Shown: in pieces, positions 4,816-34,471 of the stretch | Layout: each line of letters opens with the position of its first letter | Position numbering within the stretch: position 1 is the first letter of the stretch | Assembly: GCA_025774805.1 (NCBI GenBank) | Contig: JALGZR010000033.1 | Location: 1 to 34,642 of the forward strand | DNA: 34,642 bases | Source of the DNA: a bacterium | GTDB taxonomy: Bacteria; ARS69 | Direction: 5' to 3' | Notes under the pieces: model-generated | Seen by the model: the letters and a program-made list of their open reading frames with translations, nothing else | What the model was told of the DNA's origin: nothing | Database searches by the model: none | Translations under genes and position numbers: made by a program

Positions 4816-5751
4816 GTGTTGGATTCACGAGGGAACGGGCTCGAGCCCTCTCTCGACGAGACGGGTGCGCGCAGCCCGGGGCGGCGGGGCGCTGCCCCGG
4901 CGAGCTCCAAGCAGGCGCCCTCCCGCTCCCGAGACAGCCTCGGCGCCTACCTGGCCGCAATCAGTCGGACCAAGCTGCTCACGCGCGAGGAGGAGGTGGC
5001 TCTCTCCCGGGCCGCCCGCTCGGGTGACTCGAGGGCGCACGATCGACTGATCGCGGCGAACCTCCGCTTGGTCGTGTCCATCGCGCGTCGCTACCAGGGC
5101 ATGGGGCTCTCCTTCACCGATCTCATCGGAGAGGGGAACCTGGGGCTGATCAAAGCGGCCGAGTACTTCGATCCCGAGCTGGGGTTCCGATTCTCGACTT
5201 ACGCCTCGAAGTGGATCCGCCAGTCGATCACGCGATCGCTCGCGAACCACAGCCGCACCGTGCGAATCCCGGCGAACGTCATCGCGAGCCTGCGCAAGTT
5301 TCTGCAGGCGGAGCGACGCCTCGCCCAGAAGTGGACCGGGCGTCACACCCTCGAGGACGTCTCGAAGGAGATGGACCTTCCGATCGAGAAGGTGACCGAC
5401 CTCGCGCGTCTGACTCGCAGCACTCTCTCCATGGACTCGCCGGTCGGGGACGAGGCGCAGACCACGCTCTATGACCTTCTTCCCGACGGTCGGGTGGGCT
5501 CGCCTCTCGAGATCGCGGCGGCGACGCTCAACCGACGTCGCGTGACCGCCCTTCTGGAGCATCTCGACGAGCGCGAGCGCAGGATCCTGAATCTGCGCTT
5601 CGGGCTCGACGGCCAGGAGCCGCTCTCGCTCGAGGAAACCGGAAAGAAGATCGGAGTGACCCGAGAGCGGGTGCGGCAGATCGAGAAGCGATGCCTCCTC
5701 AGGTTGAGAAAGCTCGCTCGGGAGGCGGAGGAGGACGTGTCCTCCCAATAG
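4816..5751 (+). CDS. RNA polymerase sigma factor, sigma-70 family (group 2-like)
   Basis: About 311 residues from GTG 4816 (333 from ATG 4750). Region 1.2 (about 40-75, [20 protein letters not shown]), region 2 (about 76-145, [33 protein letters not shown]), region 3, and region 4 with its helix-turn-helix (about 271-305, [20 protein letters not shown]) are all present. There is no region 1.1, which fits an alternative RpoS/SigB-like primary-type factor rather than the housekeeping one. It should direct core RNA polymerase to -35/-10 promoters for a particular condition. The -24/-12 promoter at 4623 and the adjacent activator suggest it is switched on by sigma-54. The frame stays open back to 4630, but a start there would fall inside the promoter. 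Confidence 0.93.
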
Positions 5752-24069: not shown

Positions 24070-26652
24070 TTGCCTTTGAGCCGGTGCGCCCGATTCGCAC
24101 GAATCGTCCTTCCTCTGGTCAGTCTCGTCCTCGCCGCGCCGACGCCGAGTGATGCCCTGCGGACACGGAAGCTCCCGGAGGGACCGGAGCCCTTCGAGTC
24201 GAGTCTGGTGGATCGCGCCCGGACGCTCGACTCGTCCCGGATCCACGCCGTGGTCCGGGCGCCCGGCGGCCGGGCCCCGGGATCCCGTTCGGGGGAGGTG
24301 CGCCTCCTCCGCTCGATCGACGGCGATCTCTGGCTGGCGTCCCTTCCCGTGGACCTGGTGCGGGAGCGGCGGCTCCCCCGGCGGATCACCAAGGTGTGGG
24401 ATCTCCGTTCCGGCGATCGCAGAAGCCCCGAGCTCGAGGCCGCTCTCTCCCGATCCTCGCGGGACGGGGGGGCGCCGGTCGGACTTCGGGTCAAGGCATT
24501 CCAGGATGCGTCGCTGGAGACGGTCCGGGCGGCGGTTCGAGGGGCGGGGGGTCGGATCCTCTCCGAGGCGGCTCTCCTCGGCGTGCTCGACGTGGAGATT
24601 CCGTCCTCGGCGCTCGAGCTCCTGTCCGCTCTCGACGACGTTCGGTGGATCGAGCCGATTCCGCCCCTGCCGGCCATGGCCAACGACGGCATGCGGGTGA
24701 ACGCGGCCATCGAACCGCTCCACCAGCTCGGCCTCGACGGGACGGGCGTGGTGCTCGGCATGTGGGACGACGATCGGCCGGATACGCTGCATCCGGATCT
24801 CGCCGGTCGGGTGACGCCGTTGGACGGAATGTTCCTCTCCCCGCACTCGACCCATGTGGCGGGGGTCGCGGTGGGAACCGGAGTGAACAGCGTGAACCAC
24901 GGGGGAACGCCTTTTCAGTGGCGCGGCGTCGCCCCCGCCGCGACGCTCTTCGCCTGGGACGTGGAGGATCACCTGATCGAGTCCTTCACCGCGATCAACA
25001 CCTATGGCATCGACGTGTCGACGAACTCGTGGCGCTATCCGGTCGACGACTCGAACTGCGATCTCTTCGGGGACTACGGGAGCGACGCCCCTGAGTACGA
25101 CGCGATCGTGCGGGGGATCTTCGGCAAGCCCGTCTCCATCGTGTTCGCGGCCGGCAACGAACGGGACGACGGCATCTGCGGCAAGGACACCCTGGGGGGG
25201 TACTGGACGATGCCCCCCCCCGGCACCGCGAAGAACGTGATCACGGTCGGCGCGCACTTCTCGGACATGGCGTCGGCGATGACCGGCTTCTCCAACTGGG
25301 GGCCGACGGATGACGGCCGGATGAAGCCGGACATGACCGCACCCGGGTGTCAGCTGTTCGGGGACTTCGGAATCACGTCCACGACGACGGGGGTGGTTCC
25401 GGGGGGATATTTCGCTCGATGCGGCACGAGTCAGGCGACCCCCGTGGTGAGCGGGGCCATTGCACTGCTGGTCGGGGATTGGCGGGCGCGCTTTCCCGGG
25501 GATCCGCGGCCGGCGACCGCGAAGGCGCTCCTCGGCGGCTTCGCCCACGATCGATACGAGGTCGGACCGGATTACCGTTTCGGCCTCGGGGCGATCGACG
25601 TCGAGGCGAGCGACGTCGCCCTCCGCACGGCCACCACCCTGGAGGATGCGGTAGGTCATCAGCAGTCCGACGTGTGGTCATTCTGGGTGCCTTCGGGTGC
25701 CGATACGCTGCGAGTGACGATGGTCTGGGACGATCCGCCCGGGGCCGAGCTGGCCGACACGGCGCTCGTCAACGACCTCGATCTCATGCTCTTCGCTCCG
25801 ACGGCGGGCTCCTTCCTGCCGTTCGTGCTCGATCCGGAGGACCCGGACGCGCCCGCGGTTCCCGGATACAACCGCCTGGACAACGTGGAGCAGGTCCTGG
25901 TCGCCTCCCCGGAAGCGGGCGAGTGGACCGCATGGGTCTTCGGGACGAGTGTTCCCGACGGTCCCCAGGAGTACACGATCGTCGGCTTCGACACCCGGCC
26001 CCCGGCCGATCCCGCGGCCGCGTCCGCGAGCGCGGTGAACGACAGCACCGTCGCCCTGACCTGGATCCGGGCCGGGGACGCCGATCGGGCGGGAACCCTC
26101 GTCGTGCGCTCCAAGTTGCCGATCACCTGGACCCCCACCGACGGCTCGACCTATCCGGTGGGATCCACTCCGACCCACGGGATTCGGGTCGTCGTGAGCG
26201 ACGACATCGACCACTCCGTCACCCCTTACCTCGACACCCAGGTCCGGCCCGGCCTCGTCTACCGCTACGCCTTCTTCTCCTACGACGAGATCCCGAACTA
26301 CTCTCCCGGGGTGCACGACACCGCGAACGTCGCCGCCGAGGGCGTTCCTGCCTCTCCCGTCAAGCCCGCCCCGACGACGATTCGCTTCGCCCGGAGCGGT
26401 GCGAATCCCTCCCGGGACCGGGCCACGTTCCGATTCGATCTTCCGCGGGAGGCCGTCGTCTCGCTCGACGTCTACGACGCGGCGGGGCGGCACCTGATCA
26501 CCGTGCTCCGCGGCGAGCGGACGGCGGGATCTCACCGGGCGGTCTGGGACGGTCGCGATTCGAGAGGGGCCCGGGTGGCGAGCGGGATCTACTTCGCGCG
26601 ATTCCGGGCCCCGGGCTTCCACGCGATCGAGAAGGTGACGCTTCTCCGGTGA
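24070..26652 (+). CDS. Secreted subtilisin-like (S8) serine protease with FlgD-like C-terminal domain
   Basis: An 860-residue exported protease. TTG 24070 has GGAGAAG upstream and yields a signal peptide (RCARFARIVLPLVSLVLAAPTPSDA). A propeptide-like region (about 30-220) precedes the S8 domain with D233 (GMWDDD), H259 (HSTHVAG), oxyanion N363 (FAAGNE) and S454 (CGTSQATPVVSG), so the catalytic set is complete. A P-proprotein/jelly-roll-like region with DDPPGAELADTALVNDLDLML follows, then a fibronectin-like stretch. The last 80 residues (NPSRDRATFRFDLP, VYDAAGRHLITVLRG, WDGRDSRGARVASGIYF) form the FlgD-Ig-like domain that often serves as a C-terminal sorting signal in FCB-type bacteria. It is probably surface-bound or released; its target proteins are unknown. 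Confidence 0.92.
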   Translation: MPLSRCARFARIVLPLVSLVLAAPTPSDALRTRKLPEGPEPFESSLVDRARTLDSSRIHAVVRAPGGRAPGSRSGEVRLLRSIDGDLWLASLPVDLVRERRLPRRITKVWDLRSGDRRSPELEAALSRSSRDGGAPVGLRVKAFQDASLETVRAAVRGAGGRILSEAALLGVLDVEIPSSALELLSALDDVRWIEPIPPLPAMANDGMRVNAAIEPLHQLGLDGTGVVLGMWDDDRPDTLHPDLAGRVTPLDGMFLSPHSTHVAGVAVGTGVNSVNHGGTPFQWRGVAPAATLFAWDVEDHLIESFTAINTYGIDVSTNSWRYPVDDSNCDLFGDYGSDAPEYDAIVRGIFGKPVSIVFAAGNERDDGICGKDTLGGYWTMPPPGTAKNVITVGAHFSDMASAMTGFSNWGPTDDGRMKPDMTAPGCQLFGDFGITSTTTGVVPGGYFARCGTSQATPVVSGAIALLVGDWRARFPGDPRPATAKALLGGFAHDRYEVGPDYRFGLGAIDVEASDVALRTATTLEDAVGHQQSDVWSFWVPSGADTLRVTMVWDDPPGAELADTALVNDLDLMLFAPTAGSFLPFVLDPEDPDAPAVPGYNRLDNVEQVLVASPEAGEWTAWVFGTSVPDGPQEYTIVGFDTRPPADPAAASASAVNDSTVALTWIRAGDADRAGTLVVRSKLPITWTPTDGSTYPVGSTPTHGIRVVVSDDIDHSVTPYLDTQVRPGLVYRYAFFSYDEIPNYSPGVHDTANVAAEGVPASPVKPAPTTIRFARSGANPSRDRATFRFDLPREAVVSLDVYDAAGRHLITVLRGERTAGSHRAVWDGRDSRGARVASGIYFARFRAPGFHAIEKVTLLR

Positions 26653-26804
26653 GCGCGCTCCGGGCAGGAAAGGCTACCGGCGACGTTCGGGCGCCCGCAT
26701 AATGGAGGTCACTCAGGCGGGTGGGCGCGTCGACCTCCGGGCCAACCGTCGCCGCGTGCCGCCGTCGGAACGCCGTCGGGACCACCCCGGTGCGGAGAAC
26801 GGAC

Positions 26805-27704
26805 GTGAGGGACTTCCTGGACACGCTGGGAGAGGCGCTTCGGGCGGGGAACCCCCTCGCCGTGGCGACGATCGTCTCCAGTCGGGGATCGACCCCGCGG
26901 AAGATCGGGGCGAAGATGATCGTCCGCGCGGACGGCCGAATCGACTTCACGCTCGGGGGTGGACCGTTCGAAGCCCTCGTCATCGAAGACGCGCGGACGG
27001 CGATCGCCACCGGAGAGTCGGGGATCAAGTGCTACCGGTTCCTGCCGTCGGGGGATCACGCGACCGGACAGACCTGCGGCGGTGAGGTCGAGGTGTTCAT
27101 CGACGTCCACCGCCCGCCGGCCCGCGTCGTGCTGTTCGGAGGAGGCCATGTCGCCGTCCCGGTGTCTCGGCTCGCGAAGGCGACCGGGTTCCGGGTGGCC
27201 GTCATCGACGACCGGAGGGAGTTCGCGAGCCGGGAGCGCTTCGCGGAAGTCGACGAAGTCGTTCACGCCGAGGGGGGATACGCCCGTCTCGACTTCCCGC
27301 TGGAAGAGAACGACTACGTCGTCATCGTGACGCGTTGCCACGAGACGGACGAGGCATGTCTCCGGCTCGTGCTGAACGACGACCGGGAGCCGGCCTACGT
27401 GGGAGTGATCGCGTCGCGCCGGAAGGCGAGGCTCCTGCTGAAGAACCTCCGGGAGGACGGCTACCCGCCGGATCGCCTCGAGGCGGTGCGATCTCCGATC
27501 GGGCTCGACATCGGGGCCGAGACGCCCGAGGAGATCGCGGTGTCGATTCTGGGAGAGATCCTCGCCGAGCGGGCGGGACGACGGGCGCGCCCCCTGTCGG
27601 AGGAGACCCGAGTCCCGGAGAACGTCACGGTCCGGCGCGCGCCGCGGCCGAGGCGGGCAAGAGCGACTCGATCCTCCGCCGCGCCCCCTCCGACCAGCCC
27701 TTGA
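26805..27704 (+). CDS. XdhC/CoxI-family molybdenum-enzyme maturation protein
   Basis: About 299 residues from GTG 26805, with GGAG seven bases upstream (GTG 26790 is an alternative). The N-terminal XdhC_CoxI domain shows AVATIVSSRGSTPRKIGAKM and FTLGGGPFEA. A Rossmann-like domain follows (VVLFGGGHVAVPVSRLAKATGFRVAVIDDR), then ASRRKARLLLKNL and SPIGLDIGAETPEEIAVSILGEILAERAG, the family ending. Relatives help insert the sulfurated molybdenum cofactor into xanthine dehydrogenase or CO dehydrogenase. No molybdenum hydroxylase gene is nearby. The last 35 residues are Arg/Pro/Ala-rich and run 80 bases into the convergent gene, probably an untrimmed, nonfunctional tail. Confidence 0.88.
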   Translation: MRDFLDTLGEALRAGNPLAVATIVSSRGSTPRKIGAKMIVRADGRIDFTLGGGPFEALVIEDARTAIATGESGIKCYRFLPSGDHATGQTCGGEVEVFIDVHRPPARVVLFGGGHVAVPVSRLAKATGFRVAVIDDRREFASRERFAEVDEVVHAEGGYARLDFPLEENDYVVIVTRCHETDEACLRLVLNDDREPAYVGVIASRRKARLLLKNLREDGYPPDRLEAVRSPIGLDIGAETPEEIAVSILGEILAERAGRRARPLSEETRVPENVTVRRAPRPRRARATRSSAAPPPTSP

Positions 27705-28731
27705 ACACGTCGACGACGACCCCGTCTCCATCCATCACGAAGTTCAGCGGGACGAGGATCTCCTCGCCGGTGAACAGACGGGAGAAGACCGTCTCCTCCG
27801 CGAGGAAGATGGGGTAGGTCACGCCGAGCTTGCGGATCGTGCGCGGGACCTTCTTCCGGTCCTTGCCCATGTCGAGACTGAGCCCGATCACGTCGAGACC
27901 GTTGCGCTCGAGCTCCGGGACGAGGGCTTCGAGCTCCGGCATCTCGCGCCGACAGGGAACGCACCAGGTGGCCCACAGATTGACCAGGGTGTGGCGGCCG
28001 GTACGGCGGACGGCGGCGAGCCGCGTGCTCTCCCCGCCGACCGTGAGGAGCGGGAGGTCGGGAAACCGGTCACCCGGCCGGATCGCGAGGAGAGTCTCGA
28101 GCGCCTCCTCCCCGGACACGGGATCGGGGAGATCGAACTTCCTCTCCCGGATCACGTCGTACGATCCCTCGCCCTCCCGAACCGTGATCGAGGTGCGCGC
28201 GGGGATGTCCTCGAGGCGCTCGCGCGTTCCCGACGGCCAGACGATCTCGACCCATTCGACCCGGGCGTCGTCTCCCAGGCCGAAGATCAGCCGCGGGTCG
28301 CTCTGGGAGACGAAGCCGGAGCCGCCCGCCTTGATCTTCGTGAGAACGCCCTGCGAGGTCTTGACGCGGACGACCGCGCCGTAGGCGTTCCGACCGCTCT
28401 GCGTGCCTTCCAGCGTCACGCGCAGGAATCCGTCGTCCTGCCCGACGAGGTTGCGGAAGAGGTGATGGGCCTTGCCCTGGAGCGCCGTGAGGAAGATGTC
28501 GTAGTCACCGTCGTTGTCGAAGTCGGCGTAGACGGCGCCCCGGCCGTCGGTCTCCGAATCGATTCCCGACAGGCCGGAGATGTCCAGGAATCCCTCGCCC
28601 CGGCGGTTGAGGTGGACGTTGTCGCGCTCGTGACCACTGAACGAGAACCCCTCGCCGAGAATCTTGGCGAAGTGCCGATCCTGGTACTCCCCGCTGCCCG
28701 CCTCCTCCCGCTCCTCCGAGGACGCCAGCAC
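27625..28731 (-). CDS. C-terminal part of interrupted CRTAC1-like protein: FG-GAP, ASPIC/UnbV and TlpA-type thioredoxin
   Basis: This frame is the direct continuation of the gene at 28750-30450: same strand, same phase, separated only by one TGA and six sense codons (SLFWRH). Taken alone it would start at GTG 28731, which has no ribosome binding site and no signal peptide, so independent translation is doubtful. Residues 60-95 hold the last FG-GAP/VCBS repeat (YADFDNDGDYDIFL). An ASPIC/UnbV domain follows (about 100-190, GLGDDARVEWVEIVWPSG), then a TlpA/redoxin domain (about 218-365) with NLWATWCVPCRREMPEL, active-site pair C257 and C260, and VPLNFVMDGDG. The thioredoxin part should reduce or oxidise thiols outside the cytoplasm. 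With the upstream part and a decoded TGA, the protein is 941 residues. Confidence 0.8.
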   Translation of the reverse strand: MLASSEEREEAGSGEYQDRHFAKILGEGFSFSGHERDNVHLNRRGEGFLDISGLSGIDSETDGRGAVYADFDNDGDYDIFLTALQGKAHHLFRNLVGQDDGFLRVTLEGTQSGRNAYGAVVRVKTSQGVLTKIKAGGSGFVSQSDPRLIFGLGDDARVEWVEIVWPSGTRERLEDIPARTSITVREGEGSYDVIRERKFDLPDPVSGEEALETLLAIRPGDRFPDLPLLTVGGESTRLAAVRRTGRHTLVNLWATWCVPCRREMPELEALVPELERNGLDVIGLSLDMGKDRKKVPRTIRKLGVTYPIFLAEETVFSRLFTGEEILVPLNFVMDGDGVVVDVFKGWSEGARRRIESLLPASAAARAGP

Positions 28732-28739
28732 GTGGCGCC
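28721..28739 (-). other. SECIS-like hairpin just after the in-frame TGA
   Basis: On the minus strand, GGCGCCA (28739-28733), loop CGTGC (28732-28728) and TGGCGTC (28727-28721) form a 7-pair stem, including one G-U pair. The apical loop begins 17 bases after the TGA, inside the 16-37 base window described for bacterial SECIS elements, and has a G among its first two loop bases. Hairpins of this size are common in GC-rich DNA, so the match is suggestive only. Confidence 0.4.
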
Positions 28740-28749
28740 AAAAGAGGCT

Positions 28750-28752
28750 TCA
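28750..28752 (-). other. In-frame TGA within one continuous gene: selenocysteine codon or nonsense mutation
   Basis: The codon following GKGLKDT is TGA, and the same frame then reads SLFWRHVLASSEE and continues to a proper domain ending 374 codons later. No frameshift is needed. TGA is the ordinary stop of many other genes here, so general recoding of TGA is excluded. Selenocysteine insertion, a recent nonsense mutation and a base error all fit the sequence. Confidence 0.6.
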
Positions 28753-30450
28753 GGTGTCCTTCAGCCCCTTGCCGGAGATGAAGCCGTTCGGCGTGTGCAG
28801 ATCCTCCCAGCCGTCGTTGTCGAAGTCGATGAATCCCCCCCCGAACGCCCACCCGGCCGAGAAGGGGCCGACGGAGGCCGCCACGTTCTCCCACCGGCCT
28901 CCGACGTTGCGGAAGAGCGTGTTCCCCGCCGCGATCTTCGCGAGAGTCCGGGCGTACTCGGGCGTGCCCACCCCCTCGGGAAAGACCATCTTCAGGATGC
29001 GGTTGCCGGCCGTGGAGGACATGTTCGTGACGTGGACGTCGATACCGCCGTCGTTGTCGAAGTCTCCCAGGGAGACGCCCATGCCGTTCCCCGTGTCCTG
29101 GAGCCCGTACTCTTCGGTGGCCTCCCGGAATCGCGTCCCCTCGTTCACGTAGAACGCGTTCCGCCCGAAGTCGTTCGCGACGTAGAGATCGATGCGGCCG
29201 TCCCCGGTGAGATCACCGAACTGACCGGCGTAGGTCCACCGCGGATCGGAGACCCCCCACTCGCGGGCCACCTCCCGAAACGTCCCGTCCCCACGGTTGA
29301 GAAAGAGGAGATTCGGCGTGCCGTTCGTGGCGTCGCTCCACGAGTTCGGCATGATCCGCCCGTATTCGTTGTAGGAGCACACGAAGACGTCCGGGCGTCC
29401 GTCTCCGTTCACGTCCGCGGCGAGCGCGGAGTACCCGTGGGCGGGAACGGAGACGCCGGACTCCAAGGAGACGTCCTCGAAGATCAGTTTCCCCTCGGGC
29501 ACGAGGCGGTTCTCGAAGAGCATCTGGGTTCCGATGGCGGCCAGGAACAGGTCCTCGTCTCCGTCCTCGTCGAAGTCGAGGAACAGCGGCGCGTTGGCGG
29601 TGGGGGTGATCCCGATCATCGCCTCGGCGGCCACGTTTTCGAACGTTCCGTCTCCGCGGTTGCGGTACAGGAAGTTCTCGTGGCCTCCGGTCACGAGGAG
29701 ATCGATCAGGCCGTCCCCGTCGACGTCGGAGGTGGCGACTCCGCGGGCGAGAAAGACCTGGTTCCCCGGCGTCCCCCAGGGCGGAACGGCGTGGTCGGTT
29801 CCCGCGGGAAGGGCCACTTCGACGAACAGATCGGTGGCGGCCGTCTTGGCCTGGAGGTTCTCGATCTCGAAGGCATGGAGCACCCAGTCGGCGGGACCGC
29901 GCCGGCGGGCGCGAGCCCGGCCGTTCCCCTTGATCCACTCCCGATAGCCCTTCCCGTTCCGGCCGAGCCAGAAGAACTTGATGCGGGCATCGGCCTCGAC
30001 CGGATCTCTCTCGCGGACGTCGGCCCCCTTGATCTTGATGCGGACGTCCTCGATCGACTCGAAGTGGGAGAGGTGGTCCGCCCAGGCCTCCAGGAACGCC
30101 TCCCGGTCCAGGCCGCGCCGGGGCTCGCGCACCGGACGCTTCTCGATCCAGCGGACGATCGGCTTTGCCGGCCCGTCCGCGATCGGGACGTCGGTCCCGG
30201 TGAAGTCGGGCGCGAGTCGCGTCTCCACCGCCGCCAGATCGCGCGTCTTCAGCGCGAAGGAGAACTCGTGGAGGCTGTTCGCGAAGTCCTCGACGAGATC
30301 CTCGATCCGTTCGATCGAGCTCCGGTCGAACTCCCCCTCGGAAGGAGACGCGGCGACCGGCCCGGTCCCGCCGAGCGCGGCCGCTTCCCCGAAGAAGAGT
30401 CCGAGCGCGAGTGGGGTGATCCGTCGCCGCGCCTCGGGTCGGCCGATCAC
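28750..30450 (-). CDS. Secreted CRTAC1-like FG-GAP repeat protein, N-terminal part (ends at in-frame TGA)
   Basis: A 566-residue frame before the TGA. ATG 30450 overlaps the upstream stop as ATGA and has GGAAGGG five bases upstream. A signal-like N-terminus (ITPLALGLFFGEAAALGG) precedes an NTF2/SnoaL-like segment (about 40-195, SSIERIEDLVEDFANSLHEFSFALKTRD). Next come six FG-GAP/VCBS repeats of a beta-propeller, each with a calcium-type DxDxDG loop: SDVDGDGLIDLL, LDFDEDGDEDLF, ADVNGDGRPDVF, GDLTGDGRIDLY, GDFDNDGGIDVH and IDFDNDGWEDLH. The frame stops at NGFISGKGLKDT, inside the propeller. The seventh repeat and the ASPIC/UnbV domain lie after the TGA, so this product alone would be an incomplete fold. 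The protein should be periplasmic or extracellular; its ligand is unknown. Confidence 0.85.
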   Translation of the reverse strand: MIGRPEARRRITPLALGLFFGEAAALGGTGPVAASPSEGEFDRSSIERIEDLVEDFANSLHEFSFALKTRDLAAVETRLAPDFTGTDVPIADGPAKPIVRWIEKRPVREPRRGLDREAFLEAWADHLSHFESIEDVRIKIKGADVRERDPVEADARIKFFWLGRNGKGYREWIKGNGRARARRRGPADWVLHAFEIENLQAKTAATDLFVEVALPAGTDHAVPPWGTPGNQVFLARGVATSDVDGDGLIDLLVTGGHENFLYRNRGDGTFENVAAEAMIGITPTANAPLFLDFDEDGDEDLFLAAIGTQMLFENRLVPEGKLIFEDVSLESGVSVPAHGYSALAADVNGDGRPDVFVCSYNEYGRIMPNSWSDATNGTPNLLFLNRGDGTFREVAREWGVSDPRWTYAGQFGDLTGDGRIDLYVANDFGRNAFYVNEGTRFREATEEYGLQDTGNGMGVSLGDFDNDGGIDVHVTNMSSTAGNRILKMVFPEGVGTPEYARTLAKIAAGNTLFRNVGGRWENVAASVGPFSAGWAFGGGFIDFDNDGWEDLHTPNGFISGKGLKDT

Positions 30451-31121
30451 GACCCTTCCGGCGGGGACGAAGACGGAGAGGCCTCGGCCCGGGAGGTGTC
30501 GGGGTCCTCCTGCGCGCGGGGCGGGCCCCTCTTTCCCCAGACCACGTGCGGGGGATCGGGACGTCCGTTCACGCGGGCGGGAAAGGCCACGAAGCCCTGG
30601 ATCGCCCGATTGTCACAGTCGATCAGGGTCGCGTTCGAGGACCAGGCCGAACGGGTCGCATCGACGGTGACGACTCCTCCCGGCTCGTCGGGTCGCACGA
30701 GGACCTTTCCGACGCGGATTGGACCCCCGGGACAGTCGGGGCCGCTCAAGACCTGACCGATGGAGCCGGGGAACGCGTTCGGGATCGGGAGGGTGACCCA
30801 TCCTCGATCCATGGCGACGGTGTACGCGACGAACTCGCCCCCCTCGATCGTCAGGCCGTAGTCGATTCCCCGCACGGGAGAGGGGCCTTCCATGAAGACG
30901 TGAAACTCGAGCACGTCCTGCGATTCCTGCGTCACCGTCTGCACGTTCGGGTCCTCCGCGTCGAGACTGACGCGGACCCAGGACCCCGGGGTCGGCTCTT
31001 TCGCGGACAGAGGAACCGCCGCGAGAATCCAGGCCAGGGGGAGGAGGAGACCGGCCGCTTTCCACCGCCGGCCGGCGGGAGCGCCTCGAAGGTGGGAGGG
31101 GAGATGTTGGGTTCGGCTCAT
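30447..31121 (-). CDS. Secreted protein of unknown function, first gene of the FG-GAP operon
   Basis: A 224-residue protein starting at ATG 31121 behind GGAGAGG. A Sec signal peptide is clear: basic stretch to RRWKAAG, core LLLPLAWILAAVPLSA, cut near SAKEPTPG. The mature part (about 42-190) is predicted beta-rich (SWVRVSLDAEDPNVQTV, LEFHVFMEGPSPVRGIDYGLTIEGG, VGKVLVRPDEPGGVVTVDA) with two Cys (PDCPGG, LIDCDN) that could pair, followed by a Pro/Ser/Glu tail. This resembles the small Ig- or cohesin-like exported proteins of uncultured FCB-type bacteria, but I cannot name a family. The 4-base overlap with the FG-GAP gene implies tight co-expression and perhaps a shared location. Confidence 0.75.
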   Translation of the reverse strand: MSRTQHLPSHLRGAPAGRRWKAAGLLLPLAWILAAVPLSAKEPTPGSWVRVSLDAEDPNVQTVTQESQDVLEFHVFMEGPSPVRGIDYGLTIEGGEFVAYTVAMDRGWVTLPIPNAFPGSIGQVLSGPDCPGGPIRVGKVLVRPDEPGGVVTVDATRSAWSSNATLIDCDNRAIQGFVAFPARVNGRPDPPHVVWGKRGPPRAQEDPDTSRAEASPSSSPPEGS

Positions 31122-31349: not shown

Positions 31350-33179
31350 TCAGTCGACGTAGCCGAGGGCACGGAGCTTCCGGACCACCTCGGGGGAGAG
31401 ATCCTCGGGAGCGATCGATCGGGCCTGTTCCAAGTAGAGGGGAGTCGCCGTCTCGGCCATCCACGCGGCCCAGAACGTCTCCACCTCCGCGATCCGCTCC
31501 GCGGTCAGCGGATGAGTCGTCCTCTCCCCCGGGTCGAGGTCCAGGCGGTGGTGCCGGCGTTCTCCCGTGTCCAGAAGCAGGATCTTCCAGTCGCGGGCCC
31601 GAACCGCGAAGTCCCGGTTGAGCTGGGACACGGTGACCCCGTCCCGGGCGGGGGGGCTCGGGTGGAACGAGCGTCCCTCCCACTCGGGGGGGAGGTCCCA
31701 GTCAAGCAGAGAGAAGAGCGTGGGAAGGACGTCCACGTTTTCGAAGACCTCCCCCACCATCCGGTGGGGGGGCATGCGGCCCGGCGCCCGGACCGCGGAG
31801 AGAACGCGCAGCGTCGCGTCGTACAGGGTCGCCCCGTGGGAGTAGTGGGGCTCGTGGTCCTTCAGGTTCTCTCCGTGATCGGTCGTGAGCACCAGGACGG
31901 ATCGGTCGAGGCGTCCGAGCTCGGCGAGTCGCCGGCGGAGCCTTCCCATCTTGGCGTCGGCGAAACGGATCTCCGCGAGGTAGGCCTCTTCGGACGGCCG
32001 CCACCCGAAACGGTTGCGTTTGAGCGTGGTGTCTCCTCCGGCCGACGGGTCCGCCCCGAAGCGGGGACCGTAGGGGTGGGGGGGGACGTAGGGGGAGTGG
32101 ACGTCCATGAGATGGACGAACCAGAACGTCGGCCGATCGCTCTCCGCGAGCCAGGCGAGGGCGGTCTCGAAGCTCGGGTCGTAGCCGATCTGGTACCGAC
32201 CTCGAATCCGGTCGATGATTTGGACCAGCGCGAGGCTGCGCCAGAGCGCGGCCCGACTCGGCTCCTCCAACCGCTCCACGACGCCGGATTCGACGTAGAC
32301 GTCGAAGCCCTGATCGAAACCGAAACGCCGGCCGAGGAAGGTGTTCGTGACGAACCCCCCGGTGCGGTACCCGCGCTCCCGGAGGACCTCCGCCAGCGTC
32401 GTGACCGACTCGTCCAGAATCGTGAAGTTCGCCCAGACCCCGTTCGAGACCGGATAGCGAGCGGTGAGGAGCGCCGCGTGAGACGCCGCCGATCCGGGAG
32501 AGGCCGCGACCGCCTCGGTGAAGAGGAGGCCCTCGGCGCAGAGGCGATCGATCTCGGGGGAGGTGCCCTCGGGAAAGCCGCCCCCCGAGAGACGATCGGG
32601 GCGAAGTGTGTCGATGGAGACGAGCACGAGGGGAGGGACGTCCGCCCCCGGCCGGCCCCGCTCGAGTCGCGTCCCCGGTAGGACGGCGGCCGCCGCGAGA
32701 AGGAGCACCGCCGCCAGCGCCGCGCCCGACCCCGGCGGGCGCGCCCCGGGCATCCGCCCCACGCATCCGCGGAGGGCCCGGCCCGCCCCCACGGCGAGGA
32801 GAACGGCGACGATCACGGCCACCCCGTCGATCACGAGGCTCACGGGGCTCAGGAAGTGGGTGCCTCGCAACAGACCCCGGTTCGCCAGGAGGCCGAGAGC
32901 CGCGGCGAATGCGGGAAACGTGACGACCGCGAACAGGACTCCGCAGGCCGGGGCGGCCCCCCGACGGCGAATCGCCGCGATCGGAAGCAGAAACAGAGCG
33001 ACGGCGAGCCCCCACGCCACGCCCAGGAGCCCGTCGACCCCGATCGCGAAGGGAATCCGGAGCGGCTCCCCGAGCGGGGAAAGGACCGCTTCCGCGACCC
33101 CGGCGATGGCCCCGAGCGCGGCGCCGAGGAGCAGGCCGAGGCTCAGCAGACTCCGCCGGGACAGGGCGGCGGGAGTCAC
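31350..33179 (-). CDS. Membrane-anchored sulfatase-family (alkaline phosphatase superfamily) hydrolase
   Basis: About 609 residues from GTG 33179, which overlaps the LarA-like stop as GTGA. The first 200 residues hold about five hydrophobic spans (SLGLLLGAALGAIAGV, LLGVAWGLAVALFLLPI, ALAAVLLLAAAAVL among them). The catalytic domain follows: VLVSIDTLRPDRLSGGG (metal Asp), then AASPGSAASHAALLTARYPVSNGV, where the nucleophile position is Ser rather than the C/S-x-P-x-R formylglycine site, FVHLMDVHSPYVPP, and the metal motif TTDHGENLKDH. This pattern fits the sulfatase-like hydrolase/transferase group whose members may be sulfatases, phosphoglycerol transferases or phosphodiesterases. No sulfatase-maturing enzyme is nearby. 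The substrate is unknown, and the active site would face the periplasm. Confidence 0.85.
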   Translation of the reverse strand: MTPAALSRRSLLSLGLLLGAALGAIAGVAEAVLSPLGEPLRIPFAIGVDGLLGVAWGLAVALFLLPIAAIRRRGAAPACGVLFAVVTFPAFAAALGLLANRGLLRGTHFLSPVSLVIDGVAVIVAVLLAVGAGRALRGCVGRMPGARPPGSGAALAAVLLLAAAAVLPGTRLERGRPGADVPPLVLVSIDTLRPDRLSGGGFPEGTSPEIDRLCAEGLLFTEAVAASPGSAASHAALLTARYPVSNGVWANFTILDESVTTLAEVLRERGYRTGGFVTNTFLGRRFGFDQGFDVYVESGVVERLEEPSRAALWRSLALVQIIDRIRGRYQIGYDPSFETALAWLAESDRPTFWFVHLMDVHSPYVPPHPYGPRFGADPSAGGDTTLKRNRFGWRPSEEAYLAEIRFADAKMGRLRRRLAELGRLDRSVLVLTTDHGENLKDHEPHYSHGATLYDATLRVLSAVRAPGRMPPHRMVGEVFENVDVLPTLFSLLDWDLPPEWEGRSFHPSPPARDGVTVSQLNRDFAVRARDWKILLLDTGERRHHRLDLDPGERTTHPLTAERIAEVETFWAAWMAETATPLYLEQARSIAPEDLSPEVVRKLRALGYVD

Positions 33180-34471
33180 GGTCCGCTCTCCTCGAGGATG
33201 CACAGGCGGTTCGCCTCGTCGAAGAACGTGATCCCGACCTCCGGGTCCTCCCGGATCCACCGCTCGACGAGCTGGGCCGGATCGGGAGCGGGGGTGAGGT
33301 GAGCCGCGCGCACCTGTTCCTCCGGAAGCCGGCTCGTCAGGTGGAGGCGCCCGATGCGCTTCAGGAGCTCCGCGAACTTGTACGCCTTGTGCTGATAGAG
33401 ACGGTACCCGGAGCGAATCCGGGTGAGCACCTCGTCGAGCGGACGCGTGAGCTCGTGGTAGAAGTTCCGCAGGGCCGACTCCCCGTCGGCGATCCCGTCG
33501 CGACACTCCGCGAGAAGGAGGATCTCGGCGCCGTCTGCCGCGGCGCTGCGGGTCAACTCGATGGCGCGCTGACTCAAGTAGAGTGTCGTGTCCATGGGAA
33601 CCCCGCCGGCCGAGACCACCATGCGCATCGTCTTCGGGACGCGGTGACTGGAGAGCCGATCGGCGACCCCGAACCCGCGCGCCACCACCTCGCGGATCGG
33701 GCCCAGCTCGGCGTGCGCGGGGATCCCGCCCGACGACACGGTCACGAGTGCGAAGCAGGGACGATCCCCCACCGCGCGGTCGAACGCCTCGATCATGTCC
33801 TCCGCCACCGGGTTCGTCCGACGCGCCGGCACGGGGTGCCAGGGATGGCGTCCGAACGTCGAGTCGGGCTCGAGCGAGAGGCTGTGGTTGCGCTCGATCG
33901 TCTCGAACGCGGCGATGCCGGGGAGGACGTTCTTCGTCGGATTCGAGTAGCCGGCGAAGTAGTGATGTCGGATGTCACCGGCGGCGAGGAGGACCTCCGC
34001 TCCGTCAAGCACGTCGGAGAGGAGGATCGGGGTCCCTCTCCGCGTCGGGCCGTGGTCCGTGAAGCGCGCGGCTCGGCCGTCGTGCACGACGACCGGCTCG
34101 AGCGGCATTCCCGCCCGGCGTGCCGCCTCCCGGGCTTCCTCGACGATCCGCCGGTTGCCGGCGGTGTCGGCCCGGTGGGATCCGGTCGCGATGGCCACGG
34201 TCAGGCGGCGCGGTCGGTCGAGACACTTCAGTCCGGTCGCGAGGATCTCTCCGTGCGGCTCCCCCCGGGTGGCGTCCGTCACGAGGAACAGGACCGATCG
34301 GTCCCGGGAGGCACGGCGCAGGGCTTCCGCTCCCGCCCGCTCGGGAAGATCTCGCAGGAGACCCTCCGCGCCGGCCGCCGCGGGGGGCCGGGGCCGGTAG
34401 ACCCCCGACACGTTTCGACCCGGAACCGTCAGAATCGTCGTGCCGTCTCCGTACCTCAGCGGAATGTCCAA
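33176..34471 (-). CDS. LarA-like nickel-pincer racemase/epimerase family protein
   Basis: A 431-residue LarA-family protein; characterised relatives racemise lactate or epimerise other 2-hydroxyacids using a nickel-pincer nucleotide. Counterparts of key LarA residues are visible at the correct spacing: D66 and R69 (VTDATRG), H99 (ATGSHR), H170 and K180 (HYFAGYSNPTK, the lysine that carries the cofactor) and H196 (ERNHS). The usual SGGRK reads SNPTK. The positions I align with LarA Gln295 and Lys298 are L299 and R302, so substrate may differ from lactate. The start is TTG 34471 with GGAGAG six bases upstream. The cofactor genes larB, larC and larE are not in the window. Confidence 0.86.
   Translation of the reverse strand: MDIPLRYGDGTTILTVPGRNVSGVYRPRPPAAAGAEGLLRDLPERAGAEALRRASRDRSVLFLVTDATRGEPHGEILATGLKCLDRPRRLTVAIATGSHRADTAGNRRIVEEAREAARRAGMPLEPVVVHDGRAARFTDHGPTRRGTPILLSDVLDGAEVLLAAGDIRHHYFAGYSNPTKNVLPGIAAFETIERNHSLSLEPDSTFGRHPWHPVPARRTNPVAEDMIEAFDRAVGDRPCFALVTVSSGGIPAHAELGPIREVVARGFGVADRLSSHRVPKTMRMVVSAGGVPMDTTLYLSQRAIELTRSAAADGAEILLLAECRDGIADGESALRNFYHELTRPLDEVLTRIRSGYRLYQHKAYKFAELLKRIGRLHLTSRLPEEQVRAAHLTPAPDPAQLVERWIREDPEVGITFFDEANRLCILEESGP

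Follow-up and report, generated by a model that had tools for sequence, protein, structure and literature searches.

The locus and its reading frame

The window (the whole stretch of DNA analysed, 34,642 nucleotides) carries two open reading frames on its minus strand, 28750-30450 and 27625-28731, which are in a common phase and are parted by one TGA and the codons for SLFWRH. Read through, the two frames form a single frame of 941 codons in which this TGA is the only internal stop (Table 1). The gene's own terminator is a TGA as well, therefore TGA is not globally reassigned. Upstream lies a 224-residue open reading frame (30447-31121, minus strand) with no Pfam match, the stop of which shares bases with the GTG start of the 941-codon frame (GTGA). 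This overlap suggests translational coupling. The other neighbors in the window are a gene of the XdhC/CoxI family (26721-27704, plus strand), a subtilase with a FlgD-like Ig domain (24070-26652, plus strand), a sulfatase (31350-33506, minus strand), and a LarA-like lactate racemase (33176-34471, minus strand). Gene neighbors vary among the homologous loci and include Oxidored_FMN, MacB, SecG/TIM, a PEP-utilizing enzyme, and a histidine kinase, and the operon context is uninformative.

Table 1. Features of the candidate selenoprotein gene, in window coordinates.
Feature	Position	Strand	Details
Candidate selenoprotein gene, 941 codons	27625..30450	-	GTG 30450-30448 to stop TGA 27627-27625; predicted Sec at residue 567; homologous frames at 83 other loci
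In-frame TGA, predicted Sec567 codon	28750..28752 (28752-28750 on the minus strand)	-	same codon is TGA in 67/84 loci
Predicted bacterial SECIS hairpin	28721..28739	-	stem GGCGCCA/TGGCGTC, apical loop CGTGC; TGA-to-loop 17 nt; G at loop position 2
Optional lower stem, lengthens the hairpin	28713..28747	-	CCTCT/GGAGG; from the window sequence alone
N-terminal alpha+beta domain	29839..30330	-	about residues 41-204; helices and strands in model; NTF2-like by inspection only, no Pfam match
FG-GAP/VCBS-like propeller	28513..29730	-	about residues 241-646; contains the Sec-bearing loop/helix 555-600; CRTAC1 9etn, TMt 0.74
ASPIC/UnbV domain	28186..28386	-	residues 689-755; PF07593, 3.3e-18
TlpA/ResA-like thioredoxin domain	27688..28077	-	residues 792-921; AhpC-TSA/TlpA-like match 792-914; PF00578/PF08534; WCVPC, cysteines 830 and 833; 1jfu, 1st9, 4nmu

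Domain architecture

The domain order of the predicted protein is an alpha+beta domain, a CRTAC1-like propeller, an ASPIC/UnbV domain, and a TlpA/ResA-like thioredoxin domain. An AlphaFold2 model built from 37 sequences has a mean pLDDT of 86.5 and a pTM of 0.86. Foldseek matched the propeller and ASPIC part of this model to murine CRTAC1 (9etn, E 1.9e-29) and the C-terminal part to ResA/TlpA. Residue 567 begins a helix (566-578), and the model is least certain around the loop that bears it (pLDDT 50-65). The initial annotation described one 941-residue protein consisting of a propeller, an ASPIC/UnbV domain, and a thioredoxin domain. The read-through frame does contain FG-GAP repeats, ASPIC/UnbV, and an AhpC-TSA/TlpA-like domain, however, the first ~200 residues form a separate alpha+beta domain that is not part of the propeller. 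The modeled fold of this N-terminal domain suggests that it may be NTF2-like.

Recurrence of the TGA codon among homologues

A homologue is present in three of four other genomes from the same family (G001, G002, and G004), and each features a single in-frame TGA, placed at the equivalent codon, in the contexts RDT-U-SLFWRH, KDT-U-SLFWRH, and KDL-U-SFFWRQ, respectively. The description of a single large gene split by one in-frame TGA therefore stands, the two frames being in phase and the same codon being TGA in these relatives. Scanning contigs of public genomes with the four-sequence alignment yielded 80 further loci, 84 in all. The scan relied on two DNA patterns, of which one spelled the motif with Cys, so that part of the scan did not favor TGA. 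The site is TGA in 63 of the 80 public contigs and, in the alignment, in 67 of the 84 loci overall, with a consensus of D-[TL]-U-S-x-F-W-R-[HQ]-V. The position within GKGLKDT-x-SLFWRH, for which the initial annotation had proposed an alignment of homologues, is thus recurrently TGA in relatives. Besides the group to which the window belongs, the TGA loci represent the Acidobacteriota, Gemmatimonadota, Latescibacterota, Planctomycetota, and Verrucomicrobiota, and the compared region of these loci holds no further stops. The motif TGA-AGY-NNN-TTY-TGG-CGN-CAN-GTN was found in 32 of 297 genomes of the Acidobacteriota, the phylum of locus L061; the reversed motif used as a control and the motif with TGC/TGT instead of TGA were each found in 0 of the 297. 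One genome, G079, carries two copies of the motif, one per clade type (SFFWRQ and SLFWRH), which suggests that they are paralogues.

Because the same codon is TGA in three other genera of the family and in 63 of 80 public contigs, the sequence comparison indicates that chance or a sequencing error is excluded as the origin of the TGA. That the UGA is a true stop, with two separate proteins, a pseudogene, or an assembly error as its cause, is very improbable. In the downstream part an open reading frame could begin at a GTG (28731), however, the same TGA is retained in homologues that diverge down to about 31-37% identity across at least five phyla, the sequence is strongly conserved on both sides of it, and a SECIS element is present. 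Several of the 32 motif copies sit on contigs longer than 1 Mb, which argues against an assembly error.

At the 17 loci lacking TGA, the site encodes Ser (eight loci), Gln (three loci), or Gly, Ala, Cys, Met, Asn, and Arg (one each). The Arg is found in a distant homologue, L066, from which the thioredoxin domain is wholly absent. An unconstrained residue at the site, such as Gly or Asp, had been named in the initial annotation as evidence against Sec. Such residues occur only in homologues that also lack the SECIS element and an intact CxxC, and from their sequences these homologues are read as secondary losses.

The SECIS hairpin

The hairpin GGCGCCA-CGUGC-UGGCGUC begins 11 nt past the TGA and consists of 7 bp and a 5-nt loop, with a folding energy of -17.1 kcal/mol. 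The bSECIS model calls for a stem of 4-16 bp, a loop of 3-9 nt with a G in the first two loop positions, a distance of 16-37 nt from the UGA, and an MFE <= -7.5 (PMC13188914), and the window hairpin agrees with the model in every one of these respects. Most Sec sequences feature a 5-nt loop 17 nt from the UGA, and the commonest loop is GGUCG. An Rfam search at the gathering threshold gave no match in the window. Folded as a single sequence, the hairpin has weak z-scores (-2.0 and -0.1), so the case for a SECIS element rests on covariation.

The SECIS stem overlaps conserved coding sequence, and for this reason the null model recoded each gene synonymously according to its own codon usage (2000 draws). 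Of 58 distinct Sec sequences, 50 form every one of the six scored pairs, compared with a null mean of 2.4 (sd 1.5, maximum of 10 in the 2000 draws). The covariation pairs the Arg wobble base with the first base of codon 9, as G-U, C-G, A-U, U-A, and G-C. Among the non-Sec homologues all six pairs form in 1 of 17, compared with 0.4 expected. This one is L098 from the Phycisphaerales, the sole Cys homologue among the 84 loci, which features TGC at the Sec site (4988-4990) and an intact SECIS-like hairpin. It is apparently the product of a recent Sec-to-Cys change and would carry the hairpin as a SECIS remnant.

Selenocysteine machinery

The genome that contains the window (a 5.1 Mb bin, 96% complete) encodes SelA (536 bits), SelB (383 bits), and a tRNA-Sec with anticodon tca. 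SelD had no match above the cut-off in this bin, and all four of the relatives have SelD; its absence here is probably due to a gap in the bin. The search of the genome for sel genes that the initial annotation had proposed was therefore successful for SelA, SelB, and tRNA-Sec and fell short for SelD. The SelD genes of G001-G005, G013, and G015 contain one in-frame TGA each, so SelD is itself probably a selenoprotein. Of 29 sampled genomes that carry the TGA gene, 26 have a SelB that scores above the cut-off, and a 27th has a contig-end fragment. SelB was not found in two TGA-bearing bins, and incompleteness of these bins is suspected. SelB is also found in 11 of 17 genomes with a non-Sec homologue, which does not separate sharply from the 26 of 29.

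A reading of the UGA as a standard amino acid (Trp, Gly, or Cys) through a reassigned code or a suppressor tRNA is extremely improbable. It could draw on the homologues that have Ser, Gln, Gly, Ala, Met, Asn, Cys, or Arg at the site, however, TGA terminates this same gene and its paralogues, and both the SECIS covariation and the set of SelA, SelB, and tRNA-Sec are specific to Sec. The in-frame TGAs of two paralogues in the same genome (L003 and L009) were also considered as Sec codons and were rejected as ordinary terminal stops. The gene is thus predicted to encode one selenoprotein in which the UGA at residue 567 is decoded as Sec, with a probability of about 95%. The candidate selenoprotein of the initial annotation is upheld by the recurrent TGA, the covarying SECIS element after it, and the SelA, SelB, and tRNA-Sec in the genome.

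Selenocysteine and the thioredoxin CxxC motif

The Sec site lacks the usual CxxU or UxxC neighbor, a concern of the initial annotation that is answered in part, as the likely partner is the CxxC motif of the fused thioredoxin domain. Among loci with a thioredoxin domain, counted by eye from the per-locus listing, 54 of 61 Sec proteins keep an intact CxxC, as does the sole Cys protein (L098), and 0 of 15 proteins with Ser, Gln, Gly, Ala, Met, or Asn at the site do so. These 15 proteins mostly keep a thioredoxin-like domain. An Acidobacteriota clade (L075, L079, L082, L083, L085-L089, L092, L094, L108, L117, and L120) has Ser, Gln, Gly, Ala, or Met in place of Sec and no intact CxxC, and most of its members bear C-terminal TPRs. 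On the tree the Sec and CxxC labels each change only about four times and give two supported independent pairs, mostly in the same direction, which is not significant alone. Cys358 of the propeller (alignment position 308) was rejected as the partner of Sec, since 39 of 67 Sec proteins have it and so do 14 of 17 non-Sec proteins, and no other propeller Cys tracks Sec in the 84-locus alignment.

There are some discrepancies in this pattern. Seven Verrucomicrobiota proteins (L076, L096, L100, L103, L113, L115, and L118) keep Sec and have a broken thioredoxin CxxC, so another reductant would be needed there. Two Planctomycetota proteins (L063 and L093) have Sec and no thioredoxin domain, and a Cys replaces the Arg five residues after Sec (DTUSxFWC). 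Judged from its position in the sequence, this Cys is a possible local resolving cysteine. These nine proteins, together with a tree-aware test that is underpowered at two pairs, favor the alternative that the protein is a selenoprotein in which Sec acts independently of the fused thioredoxin domain, in metal or substrate binding or with an external reductant, and CxxC serves a separate activity. This alternative is unlikely, though it deserves serious weight. It has against it the absence of an intact CxxC from all 15 Ser, Gln, Gly, Ala, Met, or Asn homologues and its retention in L098, the Cys that L063 and L093 have instead of the domain, and the want of any other propeller Cys that follows Sec. 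Reduction of Sec in cis by the fused thioredoxin domain is the favored reading, held with fair confidence.

Proposed mechanism

The comparative sequence data show that the downstream SECIS hairpin and the genome's SelA, SelB, and tRNA-Sec direct Sec insertion at UGA567. In the proposed mechanism the protein would be secreted or periplasmic (putative export). Sec567 would be part of a conserved loop-helix insertion (PNG-x11-U-S-x-F-W-R) of the CRTAC1-like propeller, where it is a putative redox-active nucleophile toward a substrate. The fused TlpA/ResA-like domain would then use its CxxC to reduce the oxidized selenium (Se-S or SeOH), in the manner of MsrA/MsrB-thioredoxin fusions. The two sampled clades probably inherited Sec from a common ancestor. 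One lineage of Acidobacteriota and a few other lineages would then have lost it, and with it the SECIS element and an intact CxxC. On balance, the family would be a broad group of exported selenoenzymes in which Sec lies in a CRTAC1-type propeller, outside the classic selenoprotein folds, and is recharged in cis by the thioredoxin domain.

If this is true, a fold regarded as structural or adhesive would house a new type of redox active site. A selenol placed in the FG-GAP/ASPIC propeller offers testable chemistry for that fold and poses the question of which extracytoplasmic substrate merits selenium. Standard gene calling would split or truncate the genes of this family at the TGA, and a large, probably exported protein family in the Acidobacteriota, Planctomycetota, and Verrucomicrobiota may be misannotated.

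Comparison with known systems

A 2026 inventory lists 119 prokaryotic selenoprotein families and subfamilies, none of which is an FG-GAP, ASPIC/UnbV, CRTAC, or propeller entry (PMC13188914). The terms "FG-GAP" and "selenocysteine" occur together in no paper of the open-access collection searched. A Planctomycetes genome paper predicts selenoproteins but does not mention these domains in its main text (PMC4807772). The statement of the initial annotation that no selenoprotein of the FG-GAP/CRTAC1 family is known to have been described agrees with these sources, within which the present proteins would be an uncatalogued, new family of bacterial selenoproteins.

The putative family shares UGA-encoded Sec with a bSECIS element with the catalogued prokaryotic selenoproteins (PMC13188914). 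It shares the propeller and ASPIC/UnbV fold with CRTAC1 (cartilage acidic protein 1; murine structure 9etn) and with bacterial FG-GAP/ASPIC-UnbV proteins, however, the profile alignment with CRTAC1 does not cover the Sec loop (profile positions about 480-637) and also stops short of the thioredoxin domain. A C-terminal domain with a WCxxC motif is common to the predicted protein and TlpA/ResA-type thioredoxins. In the UGC-containing TlpA selenoprotein family (PMC13188914, Table 1) and the NCBIfam WAxxUGC entry, Sec is within the thioredoxin motif, whereas here it would be 263 residues upstream, in the propeller. The TlpA-like domain also matches that of MsrA/MsrB-thioredoxin fusions (2h30 and 2jzr). 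No Msr fold was found in the window protein, yet the proposed logic is the same, an oxidoreductase that is reduced by a domain of its own.
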